A DNA stretch of 64,000 nucleotides from Neoalteromonas arenosi (GTDB lineage: Bacteria > Pseudomonadota > Gammaproteobacteria > Enterobacterales > Alteromonadaceae). The notes below the pieces were generated by a model. The model searched no databases, was not told the origin of the DNA, and worked only from the letters and a program-made list of their open reading frames with translations. The DNA lies in assembly GCF_030362855.1 (NCBI RefSeq), contig NZ_JAUCBP010000007.1, forward strand, positions 682,675-746,674, in the 5' to 3' direction. Of this stretch, positions 46,421 to 53,202 are shown piece by piece. Position 1 is the stretch's first letter. Every line of letters starts with the position of its first letter. A program made the position numbers and the translations under genes.

Positions 46421-46759
46421 CTACGCCTTTTTAACGAACTTTGCCGTTACCATCATCTCGCCGGCTCCATCTACTTTACAGTCGAGTTCGTGGTCTTTTT
46501 TATCCATTACCCTGCGCACAAGCGCCTTCGTACCTATTTTAATTACCTGCGAGCTACCCTTTATTTTAAGGTCTTTGATTACAGTGACTTTATCGCCATC
46601 ACTTAGCACTGTCCCATTCGCATCTTTCACTGCAAAAGTATCATCTTGGTTCTGTTCATTTGGATCCCACTCAAAGCCACACTCTGGGCAAATTAACAAT
46701 CGCTGATCTTGATACACGTACTCTGATTGGCATTGGGGACAAGGGGGCGAGGCAGACAT
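46421..46759 (-). CDS. yjdM: zinc-ribbon protein YjdM (PhnA-like)
   Basis: Protein of 112 residues with an N-terminal zinc ribbon (CPQC and CPEC) and a C-terminal PhnA beta-barrel domain (GDKVTVIKDLKIKGSSQVIKIGT). The cellular role is unclear; despite the old name it is not a phosphonoacetate hydrolase. Separated from the DUF2256 gene by about 50 bp on the same strand. Confidence 0.9.
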   Translation of the reverse strand: MSASPPCPQCQSEYVYQDQRLLICPECGFEWDPNEQNQDDTFAVKDANGTVLSDGDKVTVIKDLKIKGSSQVIKIGTKALVRRVMDKKDHELDCKVDGAGEMMVTAKFVKKA

Positions 46760-46808: not shown

Positions 46809-46955
46809 TTATTCTTTTTTTAGTTTACCACGTTGACCAGCGCAGCGCTTCGAACAGTACACAACATTTTCCCAATCTCGCTCCCATTTCTTACGCCAGC
46901 TAAATGGCCGATCGCACACTGGGCAAATCTTGGACGGTAAATTAGACTTTTTCAT
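46809..46955 (-). CDS. DUF2256 zinc-ribbon protein
   Basis: A 48-residue protein read directly from the minus strand. It starts [20 protein letters not shown], and has the DUF2256 pattern: CPVC, then [18 protein letters not shown] with the second Cys pair. Four Cys suggest one structural zinc. DUF2256 genes are frequently next to cryptochrome/photolyase genes. Its first 14 bases overlap the last codons of the FeS photolyase gene, implying coupled translation. Function unknown. Confidence 0.9.
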
Positions 46956-48480
46956 TAACGGCTAATTTATCGAAAAAGCGTTCAGCGTCTTCAAACATTG
47001 CTTGCAGCTTACTGTCATCCATCCGCCCCATCGTCTTTAAAATCATACCCATGCGATGGTTATTCTCAAGCTGTGCTTTATGGCGATTGATAAAATCCCA
47101 GTAAAGATAATTGAATGGGCATGCTTGATGTCCGGTTTTCTCTTTCACGCTGTACTCGCAGCGTTTACAGTAATCCGACATTTTGTTGATATAACTACCA
47201 CTGGCTGCATAGGGTTTGCTGGCTAGTTGTCCGCCATCGGCATATAAAATCATGCTCGATACATTTGGCATTTCCACCCACTCGTAGGCATCTGCATACA
47301 CGAGTAAATACCATTCGTTAACCTGTTCAGGATCGAGGCCTGCAAGTAAAGCAAAATTACCCAACACCATTAACCGCTGAATATGGTGGGCATAGGCATT
47401 GTCGCGAGTTTCGGTTATGCATTGCTTCAAGCAATTCATACGAGTATCAGCAGTCCAATAAAACTCAGGTAAGTCACGCGTTGCATTCAAGGCATTCTTT
47501 GTGGCGAGCTCAGGCATAAAGTACCAATAAAAGCCTCTAATATATTCACGCCAGCCTATAATTTGACGCACAAAACCTTCAACACTGTTCAGCGGTGCCT
47601 CTCCAGCATAATAGGCCTGTAAAACTGCTTCTATGACTTCTTTAACGTCAAGCAGACCGCAATTCAAATAAAAACTGATATGACTGTGAAACATCCACGG
47701 CTGATTCATCACCATGGCGTCTTGATAGCGCCCAAAATTCTCTAAACGCTCGTCTATAAAGGTGTTGAGGACATCTAACGCTTGGTTACGTGTAACGGCA
47801 AATGCGAAATTATCAAGATTGCCAAAGTGATCGTCAAAGGTATCTTCCACCAGAGCAAGAACGTCCTGGGTAATTTTATCTGCCTCATAGTGTGAGCGCG
47901 CGGGCACGTCTTTGTCACTGGGCATTGGCTCACGATTTTGCGCATCGTAATTCCACTTTCCCCCCTCGGGTTCACCATCATTCACTAAGTAGCCGGTGTG
48001 CTTGCGTACTTCACGGTAGAAAAACTCCATACGCAGTTGCTTTTTTCCTTTCGCCCAATCGTCGAAGAAGGACTGTGGTACTAAGAACCGGTTGTCCTCT
48101 TGCATAGAAACCGTAACACCGAGCGACTTTTCCCATTCACACATTGCTTGCCAGAGACGATACTCACCTGGATGAGTAACAATAACTTCATCGAGATCAT
48201 GCTGCTCAAGTGCCCAAATGACTTGCGCTTCCAGCGATCCACGATTGTCATCATGATGATAGTCGATATACAGAACATTAAACCCGTCGTCTTTAAGGCT
48301 CTTGGCAAAATGCCGCATCGCACTGAAAAGAAACGCAATCTTTTGTTTATGGTGTTTAACGTAAGTAGCCTCTGATTTCACCTCAGCCATTAACACGATA
48401 TCGCGCTTCTTATCGATGCCTTGCAAGCAGGAGATCGAACGGCTGAGTTGATCGCCGAGCACCAAACGAAGTGCAGCCAT
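46942..48480 (-). CDS. FeS-type bacterial cryptochrome/(6-4) photolyase
   Basis: Protein of 512 residues of the FeS-BCP (PhrB/CryB) group: N-terminal antenna domain beginning [10 protein letters not shown] and C-terminal FAD domain with [19 protein letters not shown]. The four [4Fe-4S] Cys are C350, C438, C441 and C454, the spacing known for this group. Members repair (6-4) photoproducts or act as light sensors; repair is the default reading here because the His pair H365/H366 is retained. Its start meets the stop of the CPD photolyase gene, and it is coupled to DUF2256 downstream. Confidence 0.92.
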
Positions 48481-49904
48481 TACCCTTTCACCTCATCGTA
48501 GGCGCTTAGTGCACGTTGGCGTGATTCTTTCAGGTCAACGATGGGGTTAGGGTAATCTTTTCCTAACACAACGTCGGCTTCGGATAACACCTTGTCAGGC
48601 GCTTCCCACGGTTTGTGGATGTACTTATTGGGTAATTTGCTTAGTTCTGGACAATACGTCTTCACATATTCGCCCTGCTTGTCAAATTTCTCTCCCTGCA
48701 AAATGGGATTAAAGATACGAAAGTAAGGCGCTGCATCAGCACCAGAACCTGCGACCCATTGCCAACTAGCCGTATTCGCAGCAAGGTCAGCATCGAGTAA
48801 ACAATCCCAAAACCATTTTGCCCCTGCGCGCCAGTCAAGTAATAAGTTTTTGACCAGAAAAGAGCCGACCACCATTCTGACTCGATTGTGCATATAACCG
48901 GTTTGCCACAGCTCTCGCATGCCTGCATCAACGATTGGTATGCCTGTTTGCCCACGCTGCCACGCAACTAATGCATTTGAATCATTCAGCCACGGGAATT
49001 GGTCAAATTTTTTATTAAAGTTATCAGTGGTGATTTTAGGCCAGTGATACAGCAAGTAATAACTGAATTCGCGCCAGCCCAGTTCACTCAAATACGTATC
49101 AATATTATCATTATCGCTGCCGCCAAAAGCATCCAAAATCGAATACCAAATCTGATTGGGTGAGATCTCACCAAAATGTAAGTGTGGTGATAATTTTGAG
49201 GTACCTTCAACAGCCGGAATATTGCGTTGATCGCGATATTGTTGAGCCGCATTTTCGATAAATTTTGACAGCTTTTCGGCCGCGCCGACTTCTCCGGGTT
49301 CCCAAAGTGCATCAAAATCATCAGCCCAATCCAACGTTGGTAACAACGCTAAGTCTTCGACGTCACCCAACTCAACATCGTGGTTGGAAAATTTTATATC
49401 ATCAGGCGATTGTAAGGGATAGCGCGGCGATGCGTGACCAAGGCAGCCATTGCGGTAATAAGGCGTGTAAACCTTATAAGGTGTCCCATCGTTTTTCAGG
49501 ATCTGCATGGGCTCCCACAATAAACTACCGTTAAAACTTTTAACCTTGTAATCCGCTTCTTTAAGCTTCTGTTTAATGTCTTTATCGCGCGACAATTCAC
49601 CCGGCTCATAACGCCGATTCCACACAATCGTGTCGACGCCAGCCGCTGCCGCGAGCGCCAGTATCTCATCTGCAGCTTTTCCTTTTCGAATAATCAGCTT
49701 GTCTTTGAGTGTCTTTTGCAGGCTTTGTAAGGAATGATGCAACCACCATTTAGAGGCCCCGCCTAACGGCTCAACGTCATCGCTTTGCTCGTCAAAAACA
49801 TAGAGCGGAATAATATCCCCCTGCTCTACGGCCCAACTCAGTGCAGGATTGTCTTTAATACGGAGGTCTTGTCGAAACCAAACAAGCGTCGTTTGTTTTG
49901 TCAT
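48480..49904 (-). CDS. phr: class I CPD photolyase
   Basis: Protein of 474 residues: antenna-binding N-domain (TTLVWFRQDLRIKDNPAL) and FAD domain (LGWREFSYYLLYHWP, MHNRVRMVVGSFLVKNLLLDW, ANTASWQWVAGSGADAAPYFRIFNP). Compared with E. coli PhrB, the Trp triad W306/W359/W382 and N378 are present, so flavin photoreduction and CPD repair should work. The ATG at 49904 gives the normal N-terminus; upstream in-frame sequence is unlikely to be coding because it overlaps the divergent gene. Upstream of the FeS photolyase, with one-base overlap. Confidence 0.94.
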   Translation of the reverse strand: MTKQTTLVWFRQDLRIKDNPALSWAVEQGDIIPLYVFDEQSDDVEPLGGASKWWLHHSLQSLQKTLKDKLIIRKGKAADEILALAAAAGVDTIVWNRRYEPGELSRDKDIKQKLKEADYKVKSFNGSLLWEPMQILKNDGTPYKVYTPYYRNGCLGHASPRYPLQSPDDIKFSNHDVELGDVEDLALLPTLDWADDFDALWEPGEVGAAEKLSKFIENAAQQYRDQRNIPAVEGTSKLSPHLHFGEISPNQIWYSILDAFGGSDNDNIDTYLSELGWREFSYYLLYHWPKITTDNFNKKFDQFPWLNDSNALVAWQRGQTGIPIVDAGMRELWQTGYMHNRVRMVVGSFLVKNLLLDWRAGAKWFWDCLLDADLAANTASWQWVAGSGADAAPYFRIFNPILQGEKFDKQGEYVKTYCPELSKLPNKYIHKPWEAPDKVLSEADVVLGKDYPNPIVDLKESRQRALSAYDEVKG

Positions 49905-50019
49905 GTTTTTAGCGTGCTGAATTACTTTAGTGATTGTTACTGAATACACAGATTTTTCGATCCATTTATTCAGAAAAACACTACAAAAAATCGTCAAAAC
50001 TAACGGTATTGCAGACAAT

Positions 50020-51318
50020 ATGAACAACCATGTAAAACGCGGATTGATGATTTTCAGAAATGACTTGCGTTTAAATGATAGTCCGACGTTATCGATGCTC
50101 GCACAGCTGTGCGATGAGTTACTTTGTATTCGCATTATCAGCGATAGCGAACAAGAGGCCAACGCATTCAATTTGGTAAGCCTCGGTGCACACCGGTATC
50201 GATTTTTACTTGAGTGTTTAGCTGATCTCAATACACACTTGCACGAATACGAGCAGTCCTTGGTGGTACTGCAAGGTGACCCCTACACCGTCATTGCTGA
50301 CTTGATCAATAAAGGACACTTTAGTCATGTAGGAATGGCGAGTGATTGTGGCGTGTATGAACGAGAGTTATCTGTATTTGTGAATAAATGTTGCAAACAA
50401 AACCACGCGCGTTTCATAGACGACTCGGCGGAATGCTTATACCAACAATCAGATTTGCCCTTTTCACTCGAAAATATGCCTGATGTTTTCTCGCCATTCA
50501 GGCGCAAAGTAGAGAAATACACTGAGCCAAGAAAGCCAATCAAAATACCCAATGAGTTGCCTAAACAAGCTGCTATTCCCGGTGAATTAATTCCCATAAA
50601 TGTAGAGCGCGCACTGACATCAACCACGCCCAATAAAGTCGCCCAGTTTATCGGTGGTGAGAAAATCGCTTGGCAGCAAGTCACCTATTACTTTGATAAG
50701 ACACATTACATTCAACGCTACAAGGATACGCGCAATGGACTGGACGGTTGGGATTTTTCATCAAAACTCAGTGCGTGGTTGGCACACGGCTGTATTTCCG
50801 CTGCTAGTGTGGCAGATGCTCTGGCTAATTACGAAGCCCGTGAGCATCAGAACGAGTCAACTTATTGGTTGTTTTTTGAATTGCTGTGGCGAGACTTCTT
50901 TCATTGGCAGATGTACAAGCAACAACATTTGATGTTTGTGTTTTCAGGCATACAAAACAACTTCCCCAACACCCTTCATGATCGTGAAACATTCGAAAAA
51001 TGGTGTGCTGGGGAAACCGGTTACGACATTGTGGATGCCTGTATGCGCCAACTAAACGCTACAGGGTTTATGTCAAACCGCGGTCGTCAGTTAGTCGCAA
51101 GTTGTTTCGTTCATGAACTTGGACAGGACTGGCGCTATGGTGCAGCTTACTTCGAACAGCAACTGATCGATTATGACGTTGCAAGCAATTGGGGTAATTG
51201 GCAATATCTAGCGGGCGTAGGCAGCGATCCGCGCGGTCATCGACAATTTAATTTGCATAAACAAACGCAGATGTACGACCCCCAACATCACTTTATTAAC
51301 CATTGGCTACAGCGCTAG
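50020..51318 (+). CDS. DASH-type cryptochrome
   Basis: Protein of about 432 residues of the CRY-DASH group: RGLMIFRNDLRLNDSPTL at the start and the DASH signature DYDVASNWGNWQYLAGVGSD with HRQFNLHKQTQMYDP at the end. Family knowledge: CRY-DASH binds FAD and folate and repairs CPDs mainly in single-stranded DNA. W359 and W382 equivalents are present, but the W306 position reads Thr/Leu. It diverges from the phr gene with about 115 bp between starts. The start at 50020 gives the best N-terminus; an earlier start at 49930 is less likely. Confidence 0.87.
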   Translation: MNNHVKRGLMIFRNDLRLNDSPTLSMLAQLCDELLCIRIISDSEQEANAFNLVSLGAHRYRFLLECLADLNTHLHEYEQSLVVLQGDPYTVIADLINKGHFSHVGMASDCGVYERELSVFVNKCCKQNHARFIDDSAECLYQQSDLPFSLENMPDVFSPFRRKVEKYTEPRKPIKIPNELPKQAAIPGELIPINVERALTSTTPNKVAQFIGGEKIAWQQVTYYFDKTHYIQRYKDTRNGLDGWDFSSKLSAWLAHGCISAASVADALANYEAREHQNESTYWLFFELLWRDFFHWQMYKQQHLMFVFSGIQNNFPNTLHDRETFEKWCAGETGYDIVDACMRQLNATGFMSNRGRQLVASCFVHELGQDWRYGAAYFEQQLIDYDVASNWGNWQYLAGVGSDPRGHRQFNLHKQTQMYDPQHHFINHWLQR

Positions 51319-52844
51319 TGTCTAAATCGATTCAAATTGTTTGGTTTAAAAGGGACTTGCGCTTGCGTGACCATGCGCCATTGGCAGAAGCGAGTTGTCG
51401 AAATGAACCGACTGTACTGTTGTACATTATTGAGCCCATGCTTATCAATGATCCGCACTTCGATATTCGCCATTGGCGCTTTATCACTCAATCTATTACA
51501 GATTTGAACGAACAGCTGAGTGCCAAGGGCGCATGTATCACGCTAGTTATCGGTAACGCGGAGCAAGCATTCGCATCGATTGCTAAGCAATTTACTATCG
51601 CAAGAGTACTTAGTTATGAAGAAGTCGGGCTTGATAATACCTACCAACGCGATAAACGCCTAAAAGCTTGGTTTAACGGTCATGGTATCGATTGGCTGGA
51701 GTTTGCGAATGGTGGCGTAACACGTGGATTAAACAACCGACGTAATTGGAAACAGCAATGGCACGATTACCTGAGGCGACCGGTTGACGATCCGGCGCTT
51801 GAGGCCTTGCAAGTGATTGAGCCAGAGAGCTTGGGTACACCTTTGTCACTGAGTAACGCTGTAAAAGTCCATCATTTGGATGATACAACAGACATTATCT
51901 CTTCATTAAACGCATTGACCGCACCTGCGCAAACCTTCCAGCCAGGTGGCGAAAAGCGCGCGTGGTATACCCTTAATCACTTTTTAGCCGAACGTGGTAT
52001 TAGATATGCGCAGCAAATTTCCAGTCCTAGTCTAGCAAGAAAGTCTTGTTCCCGATTATCGCCATATTTAGCGTGGGGAAATATTACACCGCGTCAGGTA
52101 CTCAATCGACTGAACAGTAAAAAATCAGACAGTGATTGGAGGCGCACAGTAAAGGCGTTCTCGTCTCGTATTCAATGGCGTTCGCATTTTATCCAAAAGT
52201 TTGAGAGTGAGTGCTCGATGGAAATTAGTCCCGTTAATAAAGCCTACGAGAACTACCCATACGCTGGTGCGCTGGACGCCGAACCCAAAGTTACCGCTTG
52301 GCAACGAGGAGAGACGGGGTTTCCGTTAATTGATGCTTGTATACGCGCAGTAATTGCAACAGGCTATTTAAACTTTCGGATGCGTGCAATGCTGGTCAGT
52401 TTTTTAACGCACCATCTAAATGTCGATTGGCGCAAAGGCGTGGTATTTCTAGGACGGCAGTTCCTTGATTTTGAACCCGGCATTCACTACCCACAGTTTC
52501 AGATGCAGGCCAGCGTAACAGGTACAAATACCATACGCCTTTACAATCCGTTAAAACAAGCACTAGATCACGATAAAGATGGTCGTTTTACGCGTAAATG
52601 GGTACCTGAATTAGCTGAAGTCCCCGATGACTTGATTCACTCACCATGGAAGCTTAGCGCGATGGAACAAAGACTTTACGGTGTGGAACTTGGCCGAGAC
52701 TACCCATTACCTATTATTGATATTGAACAAGCGAGTCGCGAAGCGCGTGACCGTCTGTGGTCCTTTCGCGAACGTGATGATGTTAAACGCGAAGCTCGAC
52801 GAATATTAAGCAAACACACCATACCTGGTTCGCCCAGAACCTAA
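51318..52844 (+). CDS. fourth cryptochrome/photolyase-family protein, atypical
   Basis: Protein of about 508 residues with antenna domain (SIQIVWFKRDLRLRDHAPL) and FAD domain. The FAD-proximal segment reads EPGIHYPQFQMQASVTGTN where CPD photolyases have ANNGGWQW-type sequence, so N378 becomes Gly and W382 Pro by position; W306 becomes Ala and W359 is kept. Members with this IHYPQ pattern are known in Bacteroidetes and cyanobacteria but their function is, as far as I know, unsettled. GTG at 51318 overlaps the stop of the DASH gene by one base; TTG at 51303 is an alternative. Confidence 0.8.
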   Translation: MSKSIQIVWFKRDLRLRDHAPLAEASCRNEPTVLLYIIEPMLINDPHFDIRHWRFITQSITDLNEQLSAKGACITLVIGNAEQAFASIAKQFTIARVLSYEEVGLDNTYQRDKRLKAWFNGHGIDWLEFANGGVTRGLNNRRNWKQQWHDYLRRPVDDPALEALQVIEPESLGTPLSLSNAVKVHHLDDTTDIISSLNALTAPAQTFQPGGEKRAWYTLNHFLAERGIRYAQQISSPSLARKSCSRLSPYLAWGNITPRQVLNRLNSKKSDSDWRRTVKAFSSRIQWRSHFIQKFESECSMEISPVNKAYENYPYAGALDAEPKVTAWQRGETGFPLIDACIRAVIATGYLNFRMRAMLVSFLTHHLNVDWRKGVVFLGRQFLDFEPGIHYPQFQMQASVTGTNTIRLYNPLKQALDHDKDGRFTRKWVPELAEVPDDLIHSPWKLSAMEQRLYGVELGRDYPLPIIDIEQASREARDRLWSFRERDDVKREARRILSKHTIPGSPRT

Positions 52845-52845
52845 A

Positions 52846-53202
52846 CTAAGACGCTTTTTTGATGCGTTCTTTAGTGTTTGCATCAACTTGAGATTGAGCC
52901 TCCATTTGCTGCTTAGCTTCTTGCTCTTCTGAAGGCTCATGATCTTTAAGCCATTTGGTCAGTAATCCAATTTGCCCGCATTTATACGCTGCGTAAGTCA
53001 ACCGTAATGCATTAGATAAGGTTTCGCTATCGTTCCAATTTGTTACGTCGCTAATTTCTTTGTAGCACCGCATCGCTTGCGGCGTAATGTAACCGCGGAC
53101 TAATTTCTTTCCCTGAGCCTTTTGACGTTCTCGAAACCGTTTTTGTTTTAGCGCGTTTGCGGAAGGCGTTTTTTTAGTGTTTTTCTTCTGGCCGATTTTC
53201 AT
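52846..53202 (-). CDS. small basic protein, possible DNA-binding, function unknown
   Basis: Protein of 118 residues, very Lys/Arg-rich at the N-terminus (KKNTKKTPSANALKQKRFRERQ). The middle (RGYITPQAMRCYKEISDVTNWNDSETLSNALRLTYAAYK) has the strand-helix-helix outline of a ribbon-helix-helix domain, followed by an acidic Gln-rich tail. Converges on the fourth cryptochrome gene, leaving one base between stops. DNA binding is inferred from pattern only. Confidence 0.6.
   Translation of the reverse strand: MKIGQKKNTKKTPSANALKQKRFRERQKAQGKKLVRGYITPQAMRCYKEISDVTNWNDSETLSNALRLTYAAYKCGQIGLLTKWLKDHEPSEEQEAKQQMEAQSQVDANTKERIKKAS

Follow-up and report, generated by a model that had tools for sequence, protein, structure and literature searches.

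The photolyase island and its genes

This study concerns an island of cryptochrome/photolyase family genes in a 64,000-nucleotide stretch of the Neoalteromonas arenosi genome (contig NZ_JAUCBP010000007.1, positions 682,675 to 746,674; hereafter the window), and in particular its atypical fourth family member, here called gene D. Genes for DUF2256, FeS-BCP, photolyase B, CRY-DASH and D are all present between positions 46809 and 52844 of the window, forming two divergent, overlapping gene pairs plus DUF2256 within 6 kb, as a first-pass annotation of the DNA letters had described. The features are as follows:

46809..46955, minus strand: gene Z, a small zinc-ribbon-like DUF2256 protein of 48 aa (PF10013, E 1.9e-21; translation)
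46942..48480, minus strand: gene A, FeS-BCP of the (6-4) photolyase type, 512 aa (PF04244, E 8e-83; 4dja, E 6.2e-179)
48480..49904, minus strand: gene B, class III photolyase type for cyclobutane pyrimidine dimers (CPD), 474 aa (PF03441 and PF00875; 4u63, E 2.4e-152)
49905..50019, no strand: divergent region of 115 bp, with GATCGAA inside TGGATCGAAAAA at 49953-49964 on the minus strand (sequence)
50020..51318, plus strand: gene C, CRY-DASH, 432 aa (TIGR02765, 509.3 bits against a cut-off of 317.05; 6kii, E 4.2e-92)
51318..52844, plus strand: gene D, atypical cryptochrome/photolyase family member with a GTG start at 51318, 508 aa (PF00875 and PF03441)

The overlaps amount to 14 bp between Z and A and to a single base both between A and B and between C and D (TAGTG), and 115 bp separate the divergent start codons of B and C. 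Such overlaps fit translational coupling; they say nothing on the stoichiometric expression that had been read from them. PF03441 has three matches in the N. arenosi genome, every one in the island (B, C and D).

Gene A is, judged by its sequence, of the iron–sulfur (FeS) (6-4) photolyase type, since it matches PhrB of Agrobacterium (4dja) over 506 residues with an E value of 6.2e-179. Its cysteine stretches MNC, YC..C and ACPFN align with PhrB, and we take their cysteines to include the four cluster ligands. The first-pass labels thus held for the FeS (6-4) type, the CRY-DASH and the atypical fourth member, but not for B, which had been called a class I CPD photolyase. The nearest solved structure to B is class III 4u63 (E 2.4e-152), ahead of class I E. 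coli 1dnp (2e-88); its score of 375.4 bits against the NCBIfam class I model PRK10674 lies under the cut-off of 506; and in a 53-row tree that contained no named class III row it is separate from E. coli Phr and from the class I rows of Vibrionaceae. Together these results rule out class I for B. All active-site residues checked in B are retained, namely the equivalents of E274, W277, N341, M345, N378, W382 and W384 (here and below in the numbering of E. coli CPD photolyase).

Clade, fold and flavin pocket of gene D

Gene D carries PF00875 and PF03441 in the normal order, followed by about 27 residues after the flavin adenine dinucleotide (FAD) domain; it has no PF04244 match, and no NCBIfam model scored over its cut-off. 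Among solved structures the best sequence match is the CRY-DASH 6kii (E 3.1e-43), and the CRY-DASH model TIGR02765 gives 168.1 bits, short of its cut-off of 317.05. The AlphaFold model of D, built from 60 sequences, has a pLDDT of 93.2 and a pTM of 0.92, and the 50 PDB matches listed for it are photolyases and cryptochromes at 16–25% identity. The top fold match is the class III photolyase 4u63 (Agrobacterium PhrA; TM 0.76/0.79), the type to which gene B belongs; D is 24% identical to it and lacks the CPD-binding residues that B retains.

The tree contained 21 D rows and 32 others (class I, B type, DASH and Bacteroidota photolyases); it had no eukaryotic, class II, FeS-BCP or NewPHL rows. A branch supported at 100/100 separates the 21 D rows, drawn from Gammaproteobacteria, Alphaproteobacteria, Bacteroidota and Deinococcota, from all the others. 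A warning from the tree program concerned the meeting of the long D and DASH-side branches and the unusual composition of several D rows. On these sequence comparisons D is a clade of its own, and no sister group is assigned to it. Three assignments were rejected. Although CRY-DASH provides the best solved sequence matches of D (6kii, 1np7) and a common gene neighbour, D falls below the TIGR02765 cut-off and outside the DASH clade. Class I membership fails on the different clade and on the lack of an NCBIfam model over its cut-off. Finally, D is neither NewPHL, a recently described bacterial branch with inverted domain order according to the accessible part of PMC13274461, nor SPL, as its domain order is normal. 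Upstream of D at one locus lies a 363-aa open reading frame (ORF; L156:2465-3556) that matches only the PF03441 FAD domain and no N-terminal photolyase domain, possibly a short photolyase-like protein.

The flavin pocket was examined in an alignment of 61 members, selected from the D proteins collected. In E. coli photolyase, the residues compared serve CPD binding and splitting, include the Asn at flavin N5, and include Trp of the photoreduction chain. In D, the E274 site is Arg, the N341 site Phe, the N378 site His and the W384 site Met in 61 of 61 members each, and the M345 site is Ala in 56 and Ser in 5. The five residues listed for the W382 site are Phe (33), Leu (11), Ile (8), Val (4) and Met (4), none of them Trp. 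By contrast, W277, R342, R344 and D372 are retained in all 61 members, and W316 and W359 in 60. The D protein of the window fits this pattern, with R284, F353, A357, H390, F394 and M396 at the E274, N341, M345, N378, W382 and W384 positions, respectively. Across the 61 family loci described below, the flavin N5 site is His in 59, Asn in one and missing in one.

These data show that D fails the CPD-photolyase residue test at all six positions, and the earlier statement that the island covers all four main lesion classes is not supported, because D lacks the CPD-binding residues. As the replacement residues are nearly invariant, the D pocket looks rebuilt under strong constraint rather than decayed.

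Several findings in the literature bear on D through Vibrio cholerae. The accessible text of PMC4019646 names three genes in V. cholerae: one for a CPD photolyase, VC1814 for a single-stranded DNA (ssDNA) photolyase, and VC1392, whose function it gives as unknown; all three are stated to have orthologs in Photobacterium SKA34. SKA34 encodes three PF03441 proteins, one each of the class I, DASH and D types; therefore, VC1392 (VcCry2) is probably of D type, by elimination. The papers call VcCry2 a cryptochrome, a DASH protein or a protein of unknown function, and their accessible parts do not note the rebuilt active site; a "phr1-like" gene is described as a V. cholerae cryptochrome in the part of PMC9426592 available.

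D might also be a CPD photolyase for single-stranded or special DNA, resembling CRY-DASH with unusual residues. The grouping of VcCry1 and VcCry2 as ssDNA photolyases in the accessible text of PMC5241685 and PMC11976125 favors such an activity, as does the CRY-DASH gene directly before D in 43 of the 61 family loci. Against it stand the TIGR02765 score, the separate clade and the loss of the E274, N341 and N378 equivalents that CRY-DASH retains; if VC1392 is a D protein, our sequence data disagree with the ssDNA-photolyase label of VcCry2. We consider this reading rather improbable.

Conservation of the island and co-occurrence of its genes

Conservation was examined in 147 genomes of the window's family, in which D was counted from best matches above 240 bits, including genome G000; genome G128, with a D-like fragment (39% identity, 220-aa frame), was counted as lacking D. 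Gene D occurs in 66 of the 147. Neighborhoods were compared at 141 loci, namely 61 family loci (the window and 60 of the 65 other D genomes, leaving out G118, G051, G018, G145 and G111) and the best 80 of at least 591 candidate contig loci, 590 of 591 of which encode relatives. The two sets overlap in genomes (L080/L095, L050/L096) and are not independent cases.

The whole block Z-A-B<>C-D recurs in 19 of the 61 family loci including the window, with D in two pieces in two of these; the gene order proposed earlier for a search in relatives thus recurs among them and is not unique to one strain. At least one partner gene is in view at 54 of the 61 family loci. Among the best 80 contig loci, 49 have a partner in view and 31 have none, some of the latter lying on short contigs; ten, all from Bacteroidota, carry D-Z-A-C in a single direction, which is not the order of the window, and in one of these ten A is split in two. 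DUF2256 directly follows D in Salinivibrio and Tritonibacter. In the genus of V. fluminensis, D is present in 16 of 61 genomes, in pieces in two of them.

Genome-wide, FeS-BCP accompanies D in 66 of 66 genomes of the family sample, compared with 32 of the 81 genomes without D. The corresponding figures are 65/66 and 20/81 for DUF2256, 57/66 and 12/81 for TIGR03643, and 62/66 and 15/81 for CRY-DASH over the cut-off, three of the four misses scoring 285-313 bits against 317. Fisher p values for the D pairs range from 2e-8 to 2e-22 and ignore kinship. A second sample of 120 genomes from a Flavobacterium's family contained D in 27, with FeS-BCP in 25/27 genomes with D and 31/93 without, and DUF2256 in 25/27 and 29/93. 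Based on the synteny in relatives and this genome-wide co-occurrence, the suggestion of the first-pass annotation that the island genes are a co-selected set rather than a chance cluster is supported: the block or its parts recur in relatives and in Bacteroidota, and D genomes nearly always carry the partners.

Concerning the small proteins, DUF2256 was paired with FeS-BCP in 53 of 54 genomes of the Flavobacterium-family sample and 82 of 85 of the 147 family genomes, and all 69 TIGR03643 genomes of the latter sample have FeS-BCP (69/69). TIGR03643 as a partner of D alone is ruled out by this tracking of the FeS protein, and the two counts, 53/54 and 69/69, offer a genomic lead for DUF2256 and TIGR03643 as companions of the FeS photolyase. 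The small TIGR03643/DUF2805 protein is encoded near D at 25 of the 141 loci (e.g., L132:6700-6984), in ten cases within 500 bp of D or overlapping it.

Dependence on the FeS protein runs one way, D occurring without it in none of the 66 and in 2 of the 27 genomes. This would also suit a dark role for D, in which a flavin-dependent protein lacking photochemistry assists the FeS photolyase by redox work or DNA binding, e.g., as a damage sensor; the missing proximal Trp of the photoreduction chain agrees with this. Against such a role, D retains the FAD domain and the antenna-type N-terminal domain, and it often stands apart, no partner being in view at the 31 contig loci mentioned above, some on short contigs. 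This role seems to us doubtful, with a low probability.

A flavin-reductase-like cluster was also observed near D at 21 of the 141 loci, and at 12 of these the gene overlaps D or lies no more than 650 bp away; two members of the cluster match PF01613. PF01613 genes adjoin D in Vibrio and Flavobacteriia (e.g., L160:6221-6865 and L098:8496-9245), and their product is a candidate reductant.

Among viral contigs, 1 of 18 pattern matches encodes a partial relative (L237:37-1038); a neighboring ORF there looks topoisomerase-like by eye, and the contig may be plasmid or bacterial DNA. Ten phage records match, and the five rows listed among these are 25.6–26.6% identical, far below D homologs.

Fusion of D to uracil-DNA glycosylase in Deinococcus

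D and uracil-DNA glycosylase (UDG) form a single open-frame fusion in all seven Deinococcus plasmid records with D (L204, L205, L211-L215). Three of the fusions were checked with Pfam, and translation of all seven showed EPGIH and GQDPYH in 7/7 and HPSPLS in 6/7. For the one fusion tested, the UDG NCBIfam model gave 299.2 bits against a cut-off of 162, and the fused UDG looks intact at the sequence level. The fusions are annotated only as uracil-DNA glycosylase, and the annotated start of the Deinococcus gobiensis protein (L212) removes part of the D domain. In Deinococcus sp. QL22 the fusion adjoins dinB and a gene of the spore photoproduct lyase family (L215:5276-7425), which make up a small DNA-damage cluster on the plasmid.

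The residue at flavin N5 tunes the redox states of cryptochromes. The His found there in D, the loss of the CPD-catalytic residues and the position of D beside repair genes could all be expected of a blue-light photoreceptor, i.e., a true bacterial cryptochrome that has lost catalysis and controls or modulates its neighbors. The fusion to UDG points instead to work on DNA; the replacement residues show no drift, being the same in all 61 members; and the roughly 27 residues after the FAD domain leave no long signaling tail. Furthermore, the blue-light transcriptome response of V. cholerae was unchanged in a cry1 cry2 phr triple deletion, according to the accessible text of PMC5241685, which speaks for repair over signaling if VC1392 is of D type. 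A photoreceptor is an unlikely, though not negligible, explanation of D.

Proposed role of the island and of D

We propose, with about even confidence, that the island is a light-repair set in which D targets a lesion or a base state leading into uracil excision. The two divergent overlapping pairs, with one common control region, would form a light-driven DNA-repair set with three enzymes of known repair types: the FeS (6-4) photolyase A, partnered by DUF2256, the class III CPD photolyase B and, for single-stranded CPD, the CRY-DASH C. D is a separate photolyase-fold subfamily that keeps the fold, the flavin-proximal residues R342, R344 and D372, and the lesion-pocket residue W277, whereas the residues that hold and split CPD, the N5 Asn and the proximal photoreduction Trp are exchanged for another, nearly invariant set. 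It would hold reduced FAD, presumably reduced from outside and not via the Trp triad, and may use light on a DNA photolesion distinct from the usual thymine CPD. This lesion is most likely one tied to deaminated cytosine, so that uracil-DNA glycosylase would follow D, and the co-occurrence suggests a link of D to the FeS (6-4) branch.

The observations behind this proposal are the anatomy of the island, the D clade, its residue changes, the co-occurrence and the fusion to an intact-looking UDG. A more specific version is speculative and, in our view, improbable as a whole: D could be a photolyase for a lesion without a known photolyase, examples being the Dewar isomers of (6-4) photoproducts and photoproducts that contain uracil through deamination. 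D would then operate alongside the FeS (6-4) photolyase and pass its product to UDG, and the N5 His and the active-site Arg would serve new flavin chemistry.

Several points weigh against the proposed role. VcCry2 is called an ssDNA CPD photolyase in the available parts of PMC5241685 and PMC11976125. One D homolog carries Asn instead of His at N5, and 2 of the 27 D genomes of the Flavobacterium-family sample lack FeS-BCP and DUF2256. The co-occurrence counts ignore kinship, and 3 of the 21 flavin-reductase-like genes (L071, L102 and L129) look by eye like a different type. The fusion was seen in one genus only, a search of the ORFs at the 141 other loci found no relative of the fused UDG domain, and a fusion can join damage-response domains without a common substrate.

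D is a possible enzyme for sunlight lesions left by the known photolyases. A loosely named fourth cryptochrome becomes a defined, widespread subfamily, seen in Gammaproteobacteria, Alphaproteobacteria, Bacteroidota and Deinococcota. Its flavin pocket is non-canonical and nearly invariant, its set of partners hardly varies, and its fusion to UDG suggests a pathway. The role of the Vibrio Cry2-type proteins thereby becomes directly testable.

Clustering of such genes was already reported for marine Flavobacteriia, in which photolyase and photolyase-related genes lie in a proximity cluster enriched in rhodopsin-bearing strains (PMC5932025). In the accessible text of that report the subfamilies are not separated and D is not described, and DUF2256 is absent from its main text. 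FeS-BCP proteins of the PhrB type, to which gene A belongs, co-occur with D, which differs from them in having no PF04244. In a marine Synechococcus, the phr1 mutant survived UV-C 6 times worse while its UV-B survival was unaffected, according to the part of PMC9426592 available. Neither D as a subfamily nor the D-UDG fusion was found described in the open-access papers searched, a weak negative in that subscription papers lay mostly outside them; DUF2256 appears in two papers.

The divergent control region

The first-pass annotation placed both gene pairs under one 115-bp control region. The size of the gap stands, and GATCGAA occurs in 11 of 22 B-C divergent regions, compared with a mean of 0.27 and a maximum of 2 in 300 shuffles, although some of the 22 are close kin or near-copies (L042, L045); the motif fits a common control site, which is suggestive only. 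A second perfect TGGATCGAAAAA in the N. arenosi genome falls inside an ORF, and 29 sites with at most one mismatch compare with 23 for a reversed control; hence, no regulon is claimed.

Light regulation of the locus rests on analogy with V. cholerae, in which operons with VC1392, VC1814 and VCA0057 are highly induced by blue light (PMC5241685, accessible text). A relaxed pattern of the sigma-E promoter given there (TGATC-N18-CGTAT) had two matches in the 22 divergent regions and none in that of the window, and a sigma-E type promoter for the island is unsupported. A sigma-70 scan of 49700-50200 returned two promoter-like sites against 1.0 expected, neither within the gap, and no terminator.

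Genes flanking the island

Directly downstream of D, a convergent gene at 52846-53202 on the minus strand encodes a 118-aa protein with a KRFRERQKA motif; it has no Pfam match and is found at 19 of the 141 loci including the window. On the other side, a YjdM/PhnA-like zinc-ribbon protein at 46421-46759 on the minus strand adjoins DUF2256, and its cluster is represented at 5 of the 141 loci.

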